From a candidate division FCPU426 bacterium (GTDB taxonomy: Bacteria > Oederibacteriota > Muellerivitia > Muellerivitales > Muellerivitaceae): a DNA stretch of 44,087 nt. How positions within the stretch are numbered: position 1 is the first letter of the stretch; the number at the start of each line of letters is the position of its first letter. The notes beneath the pieces were generated by a model. The model did no database searches. It had not been told where the DNA came from and saw nothing but the letters and a program-made list of their open reading frames with translations. The DNA is taken from assembly GCA_003152075.1 (NCBI GenBank), contig PLZG01000031.1:1-44087 (forward strand), given 5' to 3'. Shown piece after piece: positions 5,300 through 44,087 of this stretch. Both the position numbers and the translations under genes were made by a program.

Positions 5300-5354
5300 T
5301 CGTTTATGGTCTGCCGATAAACCAACCTGGATGTGGAAAAGGAGAAGTGCTTTT

Positions 5355-7514
5355 ATGTTCAAATCACTTGCTTTCTTTGCTTTAATTCTGGGTATGTCCT
5401 CTTCTTCTCTCGCGGCTACCATCACATCCGTTACCGATAACGGGCCGGTGGGAAAATATGAAAAGTTAGAAGTCGTTTACGACCTGGGAAAAATTTACAA
5501 GAACCCCTTTGACTCCGCCCAAATTGATGTGACCGTCGAATTTAAATCTCCAACCGGGGTACTTCATTCCGTAAAGGGTTTCATTTATCAGGATTATGAG
5601 AGAACTGGCGATTTCAGCCAGCAAACCCTGACGCCCAAAGGGGGACTGGTTTGGAAAGCTAGGTTTACATCCAATGAGGAAGGGGCTTGGTCCTATGTCA
5701 TCAAGGCAAAGGATGCTTCTGGAACCTCTTCGGCCCCGACAAAATCATTTGTCGTCAACCCCTCGGCGAACAAGGGATTCGTCCGAGTTTCCACCAATGA
5801 CCCCGAATATTTTGCTTTCGACAACGGTGACGCCTATTTCCCTTTGGGTGAGAACATGGGCTGGTCCTCGGGCGGCCGGACCTTCCAATATGACAAGTGG
5901 GTAGGGACACTCTCCGAAAACGGAGGCAATTTCATCCGGGTTTGGCAGGCCGGGTGGCACACCGAATATGAATGGGCTTATTCCTATCCCGCCACAACCC
6001 TTTTGCCGGGCAATTACATGGACCGCCTCAAGGAAGCCTGGGAACTGGACTATATCCTGGACCTCTGCGCCAAGAAAAATGTCCATGTCATGCTCTGCCT
6101 CCTCAACCACGGAAAGTTCTCCAGCACCACCAACCCCAATTGGAAGGACAACCCTTACAACAAGCAAGCCAACCCCAAGGGTGGCTTCATGAACAAACCC
6201 GAGGAGTTGTGGACCAGCGAGAAGGCGAAGATGTATATCCAGCGCAACTGGCGGTACTTGGTGGCCCGTTACGCCCATAATACCTCCCTTCAATCCTGGG
6301 AGTTGTTCAATGAGATGGAATGGATCGACAATTATTCCGCCTCAGTGACCGAATCGGCCAAGTTTCACCAGGAGATGGGGGATTACCTCAAGGCCACTGA
6401 CCCCTACAAGCATTTGGTGACCACCAGCTACGCCCACGCCCTCAAGTGGCCGGCAGACGTGTGGAATTCGGGTATGCAATTCACTCAGGAACATAATTAC
6501 GGCGGCTTGGACATGGCCCAAGTAGCGGCGGGCCTGGTGGAGGGGATGCGTTCCAAATGCCCAGGCAAGCCGGCTTTCGTGGGGGAAATGGGTATCGGGG
6601 ACGGGGGCGAGAACAAACTGGACCCCACGGGAATTTTTATTCACGGGACCAACTGGGGTTCCCTAACCGCCAAGGCGGCTGGAGGAGGGTTTCCCTGGTG
6701 GTGGGATAGTTATGTGGAACCCTTAAACCTTTATTACCGGTGGAAGGGGATCGCGGCCTTCGTGGCGGGAGAGGACTTGGACCGCCGGGGCTACAAACCG
6801 GTGGCTTTTACCGTTTTCACGCCGCAAATGACAGACTTGAGTTTTTCCCCCGGCAACAGCGCCTGGGGGGTCAAAGCCGCCGAAAACCAATTCAACCTTT
6901 CTCCGGATGGTTCCATTACCCCCTCCGAATCAAACCTGACGGGTTTTGTTTATAGCAAGGCCAAGGCTGAATTCCGGAATCCGCCGACCTTCCACGTCGA
7001 AATGCCCAAGGCTGGGAAGTTCCAGGTCAAGCTCAATACGGTTTCCTCCTGGGGCACCAACAACCTGACTATCCTGGTTGACGGCAAGTTCACGGCTGTT
7101 AATAACTCGCTGGCCAAGGCCAATGGAGTTTATGTTGCGGAAGTTCCGGCGGGCCCCCATGACATTTCAGTGGATAGTACGGGTCAGGATTGGGTCCAGG
7201 TCGCGGCCTATTCCATCAGCAACTATGTTGGGGCCCTCAGTTGCGAGGTTCTGAATGGAAAAGACCGGGTCCTTGGGAGGGTGCAGTCGAGGGCTTTCAC
7301 CTATGGAAATCCAAAATTGACCCCTGTCAGCGGAGCCACCTTGAAATTGGGTGGCTTGAGTAAGAACGGTGCCTGGATGATCGAGTGGTGGGACACGGAA
7401 AAAGGTCTGAAAACTGGAATTGGAAAATTAAAGGCCAATCTAGGCGGGGCGAGCATCACCCTTCCCGCCGTTACAACGGACCTTGCTTTTAAAATATACC
7501 CCGCGGAAAACTGA
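5355..7514 (+). CDS. Secreted DUF5060/GH5-like glycoside hydrolase
   Basis: ATG 5355 has GGAG ten bases upstream and opens a signal peptide (to about residue 20); the in-frame ATG at 5331 is disfavoured. The 719-residue product has an N-terminal DUF5060-like immunoglobulin-type domain (about 22-135). A TIM-barrel cellulase-like domain (about 145-475) follows, where N319-E320 in 'WELFNEME' fits the acid/base and E411 in 'FVGEMG' fits the nucleophile of clan GH-A. The C-terminal third is beta-rich and may bind carbohydrate. Export and domain order suggest hydrolysis of an external polysaccharide; the substrate cannot be read. It lies 55 bases after RNase J, and a small zinc-ribbon gene starts three bases after its stop. 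Confidence 0.85.
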   Translation: MFKSLAFFALILGMSSSSLAATITSVTDNGPVGKYEKLEVVYDLGKIYKNPFDSAQIDVTVEFKSPTGVLHSVKGFIYQDYERTGDFSQQTLTPKGGLVWKARFTSNEEGAWSYVIKAKDASGTSSAPTKSFVVNPSANKGFVRVSTNDPEYFAFDNGDAYFPLGENMGWSSGGRTFQYDKWVGTLSENGGNFIRVWQAGWHTEYEWAYSYPATTLLPGNYMDRLKEAWELDYILDLCAKKNVHVMLCLLNHGKFSSTTNPNWKDNPYNKQANPKGGFMNKPEELWTSEKAKMYIQRNWRYLVARYAHNTSLQSWELFNEMEWIDNYSASVTESAKFHQEMGDYLKATDPYKHLVTTSYAHALKWPADVWNSGMQFTQEHNYGGLDMAQVAAGLVEGMRSKCPGKPAFVGEMGIGDGGENKLDPTGIFIHGTNWGSLTAKAAGGGFPWWWDSYVEPLNLYYRWKGIAAFVAGEDLDRRGYKPVAFTVFTPQMTDLSFSPGNSAWGVKAAENQFNLSPDGSITPSESNLTGFVYSKAKAEFRNPPTFHVEMPKAGKFQVKLNTVSSWGTNNLTILVDGKFTAVNNSLAKANGVYVAEVPAGPHDISVDSTGQDWVQVAAYSISNYVGALSCEVLNGKDRVLGRVQSRAFTYGNPKLTPVSGATLKLGGLSKNGAWMIEWWDTEKGLKTGIGKLKANLGGASITLPAVTTDLAFKIYPAEN

Positions 7515-38220: not shown

Positions 38221-41200
38221 TTACCGCAAAACGATCAATTTTCCAATCGAGTGGCCCTGAGGAGTTTTTACCACGAGGTAATAGAGCCCGTCCGCCAGGG
38301 GTGTGTTCCATTTATCTTTCGTCACGAGCGACAACGTTACTGATCCTGCAGCTTGGGCTCCGTAATCAACCTCGTATACTTTTCTAAAGGCGGTGGTGAA
38401 CACTTGGACTGACACATCATTGGCCGCCTGTCCGAGGGTTAATTGGATGTGGGCCGGATTGGAATCCAAAACGGGATTGGGATAAATCACGAGTTTTCCA
38501 CCCGAGCCATGGGTGGGTGAAAAGATAGGGCTAAAAGTGGGTGTAATGGTTTGGGTGAAGGTGATTGTTGGAGGAATAGTTGAGGTCGGGCTATTGGTGG
38601 GAGTGTTCGTGGGTGTGGATGAAGGGGTCATAGTTAAGGTGTAAGTCGGGGGTGGCGGTGGAAAGGTCCAAGTAAGAGTTGGAGTATTGGTGGGCGAGTT
38701 AGTCGGGGAGGATGTGGATGATGCTGTAGGAGTCTTGGTTGGAGTTTGAGTCCTGGTTAAGGTAGGAGTTGCGGTCGGACTAGAAGTGGGGCTATTCGTG
38801 GGGGTGTTGGAGGGTGCTATTGTTCCGGTGTTTGTGGCGGAAGGAGAAGGCGTGTTTGTGGCACTTGCACTGGGTGTTCCGGTCAAGCTGTTGGTGGGCG
38901 AAAGCGTTGGAGTTGTTGTAGGAGTTCGCGTGGGAGTGGTTGTTGGGCTGGAAGTGGGACTATTAGTAGGCGTCAATGTGGAGGTTCGGGTTGGGGTTGG
39001 TGTCGGACTGTTCATTGTTGTGTTGGTAGGCGTAAGAGTTGGGGTATCAGTAGGAGTTTTGGTTGGTGAGTTTGTTGGGCTGTTGGCACCCGGAGGGGTT
39101 GAGGTTGGTGTTGAGGAAGGGGTGGCTGTTGGGGTGGAGCCGGTCACCAATTTCCAAACACTGCTTCCGAATGTGGTTAGGTAGCGGTCACCCGTGGCGG
39201 TGTCGAAAGTTACCCGGTGGGTGTTCCTAAAGGGTACGTCTGTGATCCGGTTCCAATTGATTCCCGCGTCCAAGCTTTCCCAAATACCCTGATTTTCGGT
39301 CCCAAGATAAACATCCGAGGCGTTGCTGGGATTCACGCTGGGGCAAAAGCCGTCAATGGGGTTGAGAGTTGTGGGAAAAGTCGAAATCGGGTGGGTCCAA
39401 CTGGTTCCGCCATTGGTCGAACGGTACATCCCCTTTTGCTGGGGCGAACCCCATTTCATGGAAGCGGCGTAAATGGTCGTGCCGGAAGAGTCGATATCGA
39501 AACCTTGTAGGTAATAAAGGGGAACCCCCGCACCGTCGCCATTAATTGTCAGGCAGTTCCAGCTGGTTCCGCCGTTAGTGGATTTCCAGATTCCCCCGGT
39601 GTTGGCCACATTCCAACCACCAACCGTATAAGCAGAAATCAGGCAATAGAGGTTTCCGCCATTGTCCATCTTGAGTTGGTAAGCGTGGTAGTTAGCTCCA
39701 AGACCTAATCCTGTGTTCACGGCAGCCCAGTTGGCCCCTCCATTGGTGGATTTAAAGACTCCACCGTTGGCTGCGCTGTTGCCCCAGATCGCCACGTACA
39801 TATTTCCCGCACCATCCCGAAGAATGGAGGTGGCCGGGGTGCCCGGTAAACCCGTGGATACGCTGACCCAATTGGCCCCATTGTCGGTGCTTTTCAAAAC
39901 CCCTCCCACTCCGGGCGCACGGCCTATTTGGGTGGAATGGGGGATGTCATGCTGGTTGGATGCGGCGGCATAAATAGTTTGGGTTCCTGCATCAAAGGCC
40001 ATTTCATAAATCGTGTTATGCCAGGTTACGCTAAAGGGAAGGCTGTGGTACCAGGTATTGCCGCTATCAGTGGATCGCTGGAGGCCAATGTCGCTCTGGG
40101 CGATGTAATGGGTGGTGGAAGACCAGGGACTAATGTAGTAATGCCAGGCGGTGGTGACTTCCAAACCACGGGAAGTCCATTTTTTTCCAGCGGCAATTGG
40201 GTTGGTATCGGAGAAGGTGGAATAGATTTGGTTCCAGGTCGTTCCGCCGTCGGTGGTCTGGTAACTGGTATCCAGGTCGGTGGCGGCTACCCGATTGGGG
40301 TTGGCGGGGTCCACCTTGATCTGAATCCAAGCGGCCCCTTCCTGGAATAAAATATCCCAGTCGATCCAGCCTAAGGTCACGTTGCCGCCGCCCTTCACTG
40401 GGATAAAGACATTGTTCCAGGTAGCACCATAGTCCGTGGTTTTCCAAACGCTTTCGGTGACCGCGTTGGAATTATTGAGGGCATAGGCGGTTGCCGGATA
40501 ACTTTCGGAGCATTCAACTTTATTAAAGCCGTCGGTTACCGTGCCGACTTGGGCCAGCGTCCAATTGGCAGCCCCGTTGATAGAGCGGTAAATATCGGTG
40601 CCGTTGCCGGTTCCGCCACGGGTGCTGTCATAAACCCCGTAAAGAACCACAGTGGTACCCGTGCTGGCACCCGAAAATCCGGTAAGGGCGTTACCCGGTA
40701 GACCCGTGTTGGCCGCCACGAAACCGCCCCCTGTGTTCACGTTGGTGCCTTTAAAAACGCCCCCGCCAGTTTGCGCAAAGGAATCAATGTCCGAGCCGAT
40801 ATAGACGGTCCGGTTACCGGCAGGAGAAGACTGATCAATGACCGCGTCCCACACATAGCCGTCCACACCCGTACAGACATTCCAGGATGTCCCGCCATTG
40901 ATGGAGTAATAAGCGCCTGAGTCCGCGCCGAGGACAATGAAGTTGGAATTTCCCCGGTCTAGCATGATGCGGGTTATACGGGTGTTGTTTCCCCAGGTGG
41001 GTTGGGTTGCATAGGTCCAATTGACTCCTTCGTCCGTGCTTTTTAAAAGGCTCCCACCAGTGTCATCTTTCTGCATGCCGAAGGCCCAGAGGTTGTTGAT
41101 GTTATTGGGGTCATAACCAATGGGACAGGAGCCGTTGGGGTAATCGGTCAAGGAGCCGAACTGTATGTAATCCAACATGGTGTAGTTAGTGGTGTTATTG

Positions 41201-41379
41201 GTTGAGCGGTAGATGCCGCCCATGTCGCATTGCAGAAAAACGAGGTTGGGATCAAGTGGGGAATATGACGGCGCGAATTGGGCTCCGCCTCCACCGACGC
41301 CTAGGTTTGTCCAGGCTTGGGCGTGAAGTAGGGAAGTGATGAGTAAAAAGGATAAGGTCATGCATGACCTGGTTTTCAT
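38221..41379 (-). CDS. Secreted GH74/sortilin-like beta-propeller with Thr/Pro linker and C-terminal sorting-type domain
   Basis: A 1,052-residue exported protein. It has a signal peptide (cut near 20). A propeller region (about 22-745) carries repeated Asp-box motifs such as '[11 protein letters not shown]' and '[11 protein letters not shown]'. Its start '[17 protein letters not shown] ... [10 protein letters not shown]' resembles the first blade of GH74 xyloglucanases, with D52 in the position of a catalytic Asp; VPS10/sortilin-like binding is the alternative. A Thr/Pro/Ser linker spans about 747-957. The last 95 residues ('LVIYPNPV ... [10 protein letters not shown] ... LIVLR') form a FlgD-Ig/type IX-like sorting domain. 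It is divergent from the Thr-X protein at 41632 and shares its low-complexity style. The enzyme role is likely but unproven. Confidence 0.8.
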
Positions 41380-41631
41380 AGGCTAATTTTATCTCGGATT
41401 TGTTTTCGGGGATTGGAATTCAGACAATCAATTACATGTCCTGGTACAGGGTGGATTCTAAAGTAGGGAAGCCTTAATCAGTCATAAACCCTGAATTAAT
41501 GGTGATTTTTAGTGAAAATTATTTTATTTGATGTCCACAAAAGGGCTAAAGAAAGGGTAATATTGACCGTTATTAAATCAACCAAGCAATATCTCTCGAC
41601 GCTATATATTTAAGGCCTGAAAGCTTTGTCA

Positions 41632-44087
41632 ATGCGTGTTTTAAAACTGAGTAATTCCTACCTTTCTCAAGTAACTTTGTTGCTTGTGTCATTTTTTGTT
41701 TGGGTAATTTTGTTGAGTCCAATTGGGAACGTATTTGCCCTGACTCCCACACTTAGCCCAACCAATACTCGCACTAATACGAATACGGCGACGGTTACAA
41801 ATACACCTACCAATACTGGAACGCCGACAAATACATTTACAATCACTAATACCCTTACTCCAACCAATACTCATACCCCTAGCAACACACCTACCCAGAC
41901 CTTCACCCGGACAAATACGGGTACACCAACCGACACTCGCACACCGACCAATACCTTTACCATTACTGATACTCCGACTCCGACTAACACTCGGACCAAT
42001 ACTGGTACATCTACTAATACCTTCACCATAACCAACACTCGGACCCACACCAATACACCAACTGTTACCGATACCCATACGGTTACCAACACGCCTACCC
42101 AAACCCCAACAAGGACAAATACCCGGACCCCGACCAGTACCTTTACTATTACCAACACTCGGACTCACACCAATACCCCTACGGTTACCAATACTCACAC
42201 AGTGACCAACACACCCACCAAGACCCCCACAAAGACGACTACCGGGACTTCCACGAGTACTTTTACCATTACCGATACTCGGACTCACACCAATACTCCT
42301 ACAATGACCAATACCTCTACGATTACCCCGACAAGGACGAATACTGGGACATCGACTAATACCCACACACCAAGTAACACATTTACCGTCACGAATACAC
42401 ACACCGTGACGAGAACTCCCACCGCAACCAATACACGGACCAACACGGGAACGCCGACCAATACACAAACTCGAACTAATACTTTTACCATTACCGATAC
42501 CCGGACTCCCACCAATACTCCAACGGTGACTAACACCTCGACGAATACTCATACGAGAACGAATACCGGGACCCCGACTAATACTCACACACCAACTAAT
42601 ACATTCACTGTCACGAATACTCATACCATGACGAATACCCCCACGGCAACCAACACCCGGACAAACACAGGAACCCCAACCAATACCCGTACCTCGACGA
42701 ATACCTTCACGGTAACGAATACTCACACGGTGACGGATACTCCTACCGCTACCAATACCCGAACTAACACTGGATCCCCGACTAGTACCCATACTCCTAC
42801 AAATACCTTTACGGTTACCAATACCCACACGTTGACCAACACTTCCACTTCAACTTTCACCCGGACGAATACAGGTACCTCGACGAATACACCTACTTTC
42901 ACAAATACACATACCCCAACGAATACCCCAACTCAGACCTTTACCCGGACTGATACGGGAACCCCAACCAATACTCATACTGTGACTAACACGCCAACCT
43001 CAACTTTCACACGAACAAATACGGGAACGTCAACCAATACGCCTACCGCAACCAATACTCACACGGTGACGAATACTCCTACTGCAACCAATACCAGGAC
43101 CAATACGGGCACGCCGACTAACACTCGTACATTCACTAATACTTTCACTGTAACCAATACTCCTACGGTGACTAATACCTCTACCGTAACCAATACCCGG
43201 ACAAACACGGGAACCTCAACCAATACACGTACCCAGACTAACACACCTACTTTGACCAACACCCACACCGTGACGAATACCCCTACCTCAACCAATACCA
43301 GGACTAATACGGGAACCTCAACCAATACACGCACCCCGACTAACACTCCCACTGTGACCAATACCCACACCGTGACGAATACTCCTACCTCAACCAATAC
43401 CAGGACTAATACGGGAACCTCAACCAATACACGCACCCCGACTAACACTCCCACTGTGACTAATACTCACACGGTGACGAATACCCACACCGTGACGAAT
43501 ACTCCTACCTCAACCAATACCAGGACTAATACAGGAACCTCAACCAATACACGCACCCCGACTAACACACCTACTGTGACTAACACCCACACGGTGACGA
43601 ATACCTCTACCTCAACCAATACCAGGACCAACACAGGTACACCTACTAATACCCATACCTTCACAAATACCTTTACGGTTACAAATACCCATACATTGAC
43701 CAATACGCCTACCTCGACCTTTACGCGGACAAATACCGGGACCCCCACGAATACGCCTACCCCAACAAATACCCGTACACCAACGAGTGCCTTTACTCAG
43801 ACTTTCACCAGGACCAATACGGGAACCCCCACCAATACCCATACCTTCACTAACACCTCCACTTTGACGAATACCCATACGGTGACCGACACCCCCACAC
43901 CCACCTTTACCAGAACCAATACAGGAACCCCCACAAACACCCATACCTTCACAAATACCTTTACGATTACAAATACTCGTACATCGACCAATACGCCTAC
44001 CTCGACCTTTACGCGGACAAATACCGGGACCTCAACGAATACATCCACTCCAACCAATACATGCACACCAACAAATACTCCCACTCA
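41632..44087 (+). CDS. Secreted Thr-X alternating-repeat protein (3' end outside the window)
   Basis: ATG 41632 opens a frame that has no stop before the window ends, giving at least 818 codons. Residues 1-36 are a signal peptide (hydrophobic '[15 protein letters not shown]', cut after 'VFA'). From residue 38 on, every second residue is Thr (rarely Ser) and the other is mostly Asn, Pro, Arg, His, Val, Gly, Phe, Ile or Ser. The register does not shift over about 390 dipeptides. A loose unit of about 34 residues recurs ([16 protein letters not shown]...), and three copies near 43270-43593 are almost identical in DNA. All four Thr codons are used. It is probably exported and surface-exposed; a glycosylated stalk or adhesin is plausible. 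The ribosome site is weak, with AAGG 16 bases away. The C-terminal domains are unseen. Confidence 0.75.
43270..43593 (+). repeat. 102-bp tandem repeat in the Thr-X gene
   Basis: Copies at 43270-43371, 43372-43473 and 43492-43593 are nearly identical, differing mostly at third codon positions. An 18-bp partial unit lies between copies 2 and 3 (43474-43491). Each unit encodes 34 residues. The unit length and the insertion are both multiples of 6, so the Thr register is preserved. Confidence 0.85.

Follow-up and report, generated by a model that had tools for sequence, protein, structure and literature searches.

A Putative Secreted Protein Made of a Long Thr-X-Thr-X Array, Probably without Folded Domains, in a Phylum Where Such Arrays Are Common

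The last gene of the window, i.e., of the whole stretch of 44,087 nucleotides that was analyzed, codes for a putative signal peptide that leads directly into a nearly perfect alternation of Thr with other residues. Among the strict arrays found in the genome it is the longest (98.7% Thr at the alternate positions over 780 aa), and it represents in its purest form a stalk sequence carried by dozens of the secreted proteins of the same organism. The best explanation, which we consider rather probable, is that the product is a Sec-exported, essentially stalk-only Thr-X polymer, extended, disordered and O-glycosylated.

Results

Reading Frame, Signal Peptide and Composition of the Array

The features relevant to the array gene and its divergent neighbor are as follows:

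38221..41379, minus strand: divergent neighbor coding for a signal peptide, a Sortilin/BNR propeller, a short Thr-X array and an FlgD_ig C-terminal domain.
41380..41631, no strand: intergenic region of 252 bp between the divergent genes, submitted to a simple promoter scan.
41632..44087, plus strand: 5′ part of the gene of the Thr-X-Thr-X protein, with the frame still open at the end of contig C57.
41632..41742, plus strand: signal peptide region, 36 residues and then LTP, read from the translation by eye.
41743..44087, plus strand: Thr-X-Thr-X array, 781 residues in the window, with a 34-residue higher-order period and 18 copies of RTNTGT.

The ATG start is at 41632, with an in-frame TTG at 41626, and no stop occurs up to 44087. 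This is the last base of C57, the contig of the array gene, whose 3′ part is therefore truncated. The export signal is clear by eye in the translation, residues 7–28 appear as a helix in the AlphaFold model (mean pLDDT of the models about 50), with VFA preceding the expected signal peptidase I type site. Counting from the array start, Thr occupies 386 of the 391 alternate positions in the 781 residues read, with the phase kept, which places the protein in the Thr-X-Thr-X class. The earlier note had described a signal peptide followed by at least 780 alternating-Thr residues, stricter and longer than ordinary Thr/Pro linkers, and both descriptions agree with these data, the array running as far as the contig end.

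The X positions are occupied by N (113), P (65), R (38), S (31), V, F and H (27 each), G (22), I and D (8 each) and a few others. Pro thus amounts to 17% of them. The window array is basic, as Arg makes up 10% and His 7% of its X positions, whereas the remaining arrays of the genome have 2.5% and 0.4%, respectively. Thr is encoded freely by all four of its codons (ACC 162, ACT 95, ACG 66, ACA 64). The higher-order period of 34 residues corresponds to 102 nt, with variants of 18, 36 and 120 nt.

Selection on the Thr Codons

Repeat units were compared by pairing Thr codons at fixed offsets. At 34 residues, with no filter applied, third-base differences were seen in 229 of 374 pairs and first- or second-base differences in only 9. 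The corresponding figures were 249 of 371 and 9 at offset 40, and 251 of 357 and 8 at offset 68. So, third bases are near-randomized while first and second bases are almost fixed, which indicates purifying selection on Thr at the protein level. At the aligned X positions, dN was about 0.14–0.20 against a dS of 0.87–2.0; the windows compared had been selected for 75% identity, which pulls the dN of X positions downward. A simple DNA repeat was also considered for the window array, and it is ruled out by the codon-position pattern at Thr.

Probable 3′ End of the Gene on Contig C18

A DNA-level search of the 4.1-Mb genome for RTNTGT gave 21 matches. Of these, 18 were in C57 and three in the first 230 bases of C18, with no match elsewhere in the genome and none in the reversed control. 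Its confinement to these two places makes it likely that the start of C18 is the 3′ end of the array gene. The opening block of C18 is near-identical to the last block of C57. No exact overlap bridges the two contigs, and their join is strongly inferred from these sequence matches. The array stretch of C18 holds a 42-base N run and then ends in ...TDTPTDTPTP-stop, with no C-terminal domain after the stop in any of the three forward frames. Adding the parts present on C57 and C18, with the gap left unbridged, the protein has at least about 37 + 781 + 153 residues and, given the join, is probably devoid of any folded domain. The C-terminal domain that had been expected downstream was therefore not encountered, as the probable 3′ end runs the array straight into the stop. 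The window array is the only one in the genome that runs in phase directly into a TAA or TGA stop (the pattern excluded TAG).

Arrays Elsewhere in the Genome

A census of the fetched genome regions yielded about 78 ORFs with Thr-X-Thr-X arrays of at least 30 residues, and about 22,000 array residues were counted in the genome among the longer arrays. Where arrays were interrupted, the phase was kept 133 times and shifted 19 times. The usual plan of these proteins is a signal peptide, one or more folded domains, the array and a C-terminal domain with weak similarity to FlgD_ig or Por_Secre_tail. The neighbor at 38221..41379 shows this architecture, which is missing from the window array gene. 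A simpler plan, with signal peptide, array and C-terminal domain, is found in the C41 gene of this genome and in L175 and L179 of relatives. The paralogues otherwise composed only of signal peptide and array (the C41 and C83 genes) keep the C-terminal domain. It can be said that the term "unusual", applied earlier to the window protein, is right for strictness and length, but not in the sense of an isolated array.

Concerning other sequences inspected, no sigma-70-like site was found in 41380..41631 by the simple scan. Two secreted or array-bearing products were recognized by eye: a putative secreted glycoside hydrolase without a Thr-X array at window positions 5331–7514 (plus strand), and, in L063 of contig C56, an expansin-like N-terminal region ahead of a Ser/Ala-type Thr-X array that the end of the contig truncates.

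Distribution in the Phylum

Of 45 genomes that belong to the phylum, 34 had a DNA pattern for 16 consecutive Thr-X units, versus 2 of 62 genomes from outside; in most genomes the reversed control was empty. Among the genomes sampled, families f4, f5 and f12 lacked strict arrays, which are common elsewhere in the phylum. A search of 58 relatives by the RTNTGT motif returned no counterpart of the window gene, and this gives the domainless form no support from conservation. The gene that follows the array on C18 is present in five family members in different surroundings, in no case beside an array gene.

Outside its own genome, the in-phase array-to-stop pattern (TAA or TGA) occurred in four places, one of them cut by a contig end. 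Three of the four (L239, L240 and L241), from three family members, are lipoprotein-like ORFs of 64–109 aa that consist mostly of a Thr-X tail, and no domain was found in another frame behind these short ORFs. A literature search found no published description of such arrays. Novelty with respect to known Thr/Pro-rich secreted linkers resides in the strictness, the length, the lack of folded domains and the phylum-wide spread of the class, and this phylum-wide pattern is more interesting than the single window gene.

Secretion and Glycosylation Functions Encoded in the Genome

The genome encodes a SprA/Sov relative of 1988 aa (L232:1308-7274, minus strand, contig C39), which scored 203.3 bits against an NCBIfam cut-off of 200, along with PorV-family proteins, for which at least 17 matches exceeded the cut-off. 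Together, these translocon components make a type IX-like system likely. Several reviews consider type IX secretion specific to Bacteroidetes. The C-terminal sorting domain of type IX cargo is conserved, and it is necessary and sufficient for secretion (PMC12618676). The window protein has no such domain if the C57–C18 join is correct, so export past the periplasm would not be guaranteed. Of the proposal of a surface structure, the stalk part stands and surface display is uncertain, because of the probable 3′ end without a C-terminal domain.

Six matches to the PMT family (GT39-like) exceeded the Pfam cut-off, with PMT homologues on contigs C3 and C13, and one homologue was backed by PMT_2 (E 1.5e-17). 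This homologue, the best one, also resembles ArnT, the lipid A arabinosyltransferase, so its acceptor could be lipid A, and PMT-family matches were also obtained in control genomes, E. coli included. A precedent comes from Cellulomonas fimi, where the Pro-Thr repeat linker of one enzyme carries up to 32 mannoses, the transferase being a GT39 enzyme (PMC12757957). By analogy, the Thr residues of the window array are probably O-glycosylated. O-glycosylated Pro-Thr linkers are disordered Thr-rich stretches between two folded domains, and the window array probably has no flanking domain. The idea of a glycosylated, extended stalk, put forward from the sequence, is favored by the occurrence of arrays of the same kind that join diverse secreted domains to C-terminal sorting-like domains, and by the presence of the GT39-like homologues.

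Structural Models and Domain Searches

Single-sequence AlphaFold models of two window segments had mean pLDDT values of 47.7 and 52.9, models of this kind being weak evidence either way. The model of the window array had no Foldseek match in the PDB at E ≤ 0.001, and the window protein had no Pfam hit. Neither a PF11999 domain nor a confident TxT beta-solenoid was found in it. PF11999 ice-binding domains were recognized in three array ORFs of the genome (E 6e-47 to 7e-56). PF11999 forms separate domains in them, so the array is there a stalk and not the ice-binding surface. The ORFs that combine PF11999 and a Thr-X array are in L030 (850 aa) and L079 (436 and 333 aa), within about 11 kb on contig C75.

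Discussion

According to the explanation that we prefer, a protein consisting of a signal peptide, at least about 930 Thr-X-Thr-X residues and a stop, without a folded domain, would be exported by Sec. Its array belongs to the Thr-X class common in the genome and the phylum, whose members in other proteins connect secreted domains with FlgD/type IX-like sorting domains. The array is predicted to act as an extended, disordered polymer, its evenly spaced Thr residues may be O-glycosylated in the periplasm by GT39/PMT-like enzymes, and the product could be a mucin-like, protease-resistant, basic (Arg/His-rich) coat or filler. The data show directly that the array frame is open and selected, what the array consists of, and that the probable 3′ contig has no C-terminal domain. 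A wider interpretation can be advanced tentatively, as a possibility: the type IX-type surface proteome of the phylum may stand on near-universal, periodically glycosylated, phase-strict Thr-X stalks, and this species would also make bare stalks, in the form of a giant cationic mucin-like protein. The period-2 Thr is kept while the X residues drift, which holds for some 22,000 residues of a single genome and for most of the tested species of the phylum. This periodicity predicts a physical rule, e.g., one glycan every two residues dictated by the acceptor pattern of a single enzyme. The domainless array would be a natural sample of the bare stalk, useful for asking about its role in the absence of cargo.

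Two other explanations concern the nature of the array itself. That it arose as an assembly artefact at a contig end is hardly credible: contigs do break within arrays (C57, C18, C56, C91 and C70), but the repeat units have diverged at the majority of synonymous sites while holding the frame, too far for a collapsed or duplicated assembly, and many complete, unbroken arrays exist in this and other genomes. An artefact had been named earlier as what would refute the array, and the synonymous divergence within a kept frame strongly favors a real one. The ice- or surface-binding fold, also suggested earlier, supposes that the alternating Thr residues line up their hydroxyls on one flat side of a beta structure, which would bind ice or some other ordered surface. 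Strands need such an alternation, the low-confidence models do place strands, and ice-binding domains are encoded in the genome. Nevertheless, these are separate PF11999 domains, the identical type of array links unrelated domains, Pro is at 17% of the X positions, and with a pLDDT of about 50 and no PDB match within the Foldseek threshold this fold seems very improbable.

The other two explanations concern the 3′ end. The window protein could be an ordinary one, with signal peptide, array and a type IX-type C-terminal domain, if C18 were the end of a tandem second copy. The C41 gene (signal peptide, 512-aa array, C-terminal domain) provides a precedent, its plan is shared by L175 and L179 of relatives, and the lack of exact overlap between C57 and C18 fits as well. 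This arrangement is improbable, since it requires a second RTNTGT gene of which there is no other trace in a 99.97% complete assembly. On the other hand, the gene could be in decay, derived from a stalk gene by recent loss of the C-terminal sorting domain, with a product that is functionless or stuck in the periplasm. The retention of the domain by the C41 and C83 paralogues and the lack of an orthologue in relatives point in this direction. Thr positions are strongly constrained in all the repeat units, no frameshift or stop occurs over about 930 sequenced codons, and no remnant of a C-terminal domain was seen in the three forward frames behind the stop. A very recent loss would leave the constraint visible, so the constraint is compatible with decay, an explanation that we regard as unlikely.

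Concerning known systems, the Pro-Thr linkers of the C. fimi cellulases/xylanases and of Caldicellulosiruptor CelA have alternating Thr, like the window array, and are secreted and disordered, as predicted for it, those of C. fimi being heavily O-mannosylated (PMC12757957). They comprise tens of residues, have mostly Pro at X and lie between folded domains, whereas the window array is at least 930 residues long, has Asn as its main X residue, with Arg/His, and apparently lacks domains. Fish antifreeze glycoproteins have Ala-Ala-Thr repeats with glycosylated Thr (PMC6628104). They would share with the window array the disorder and the regular spacing of Thr, but they are metazoan, with a known glycan and a period of 3 instead of 2, so this is a resemblance only. 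The PF11999 proteins are encoded in the same genome and carry Thr-X arrays, but their ice-binding fold is absent from the window protein. Closer to it are the C41 gene, L175 and L179, where the signal peptide also leads directly into a phase-strict array, the difference being that they end in an FlgD_ig/Por_Secre_tail-like domain, apparently missing from the window protein. L239, L240 and L241 have the same succession of putative export signal, Thr-X tail and stop, without a folded domain, but they are only 64–109 aa long and have a lipobox-like Cys, while the window protein is about 10-fold longer and has a predicted signal peptidase I type site.
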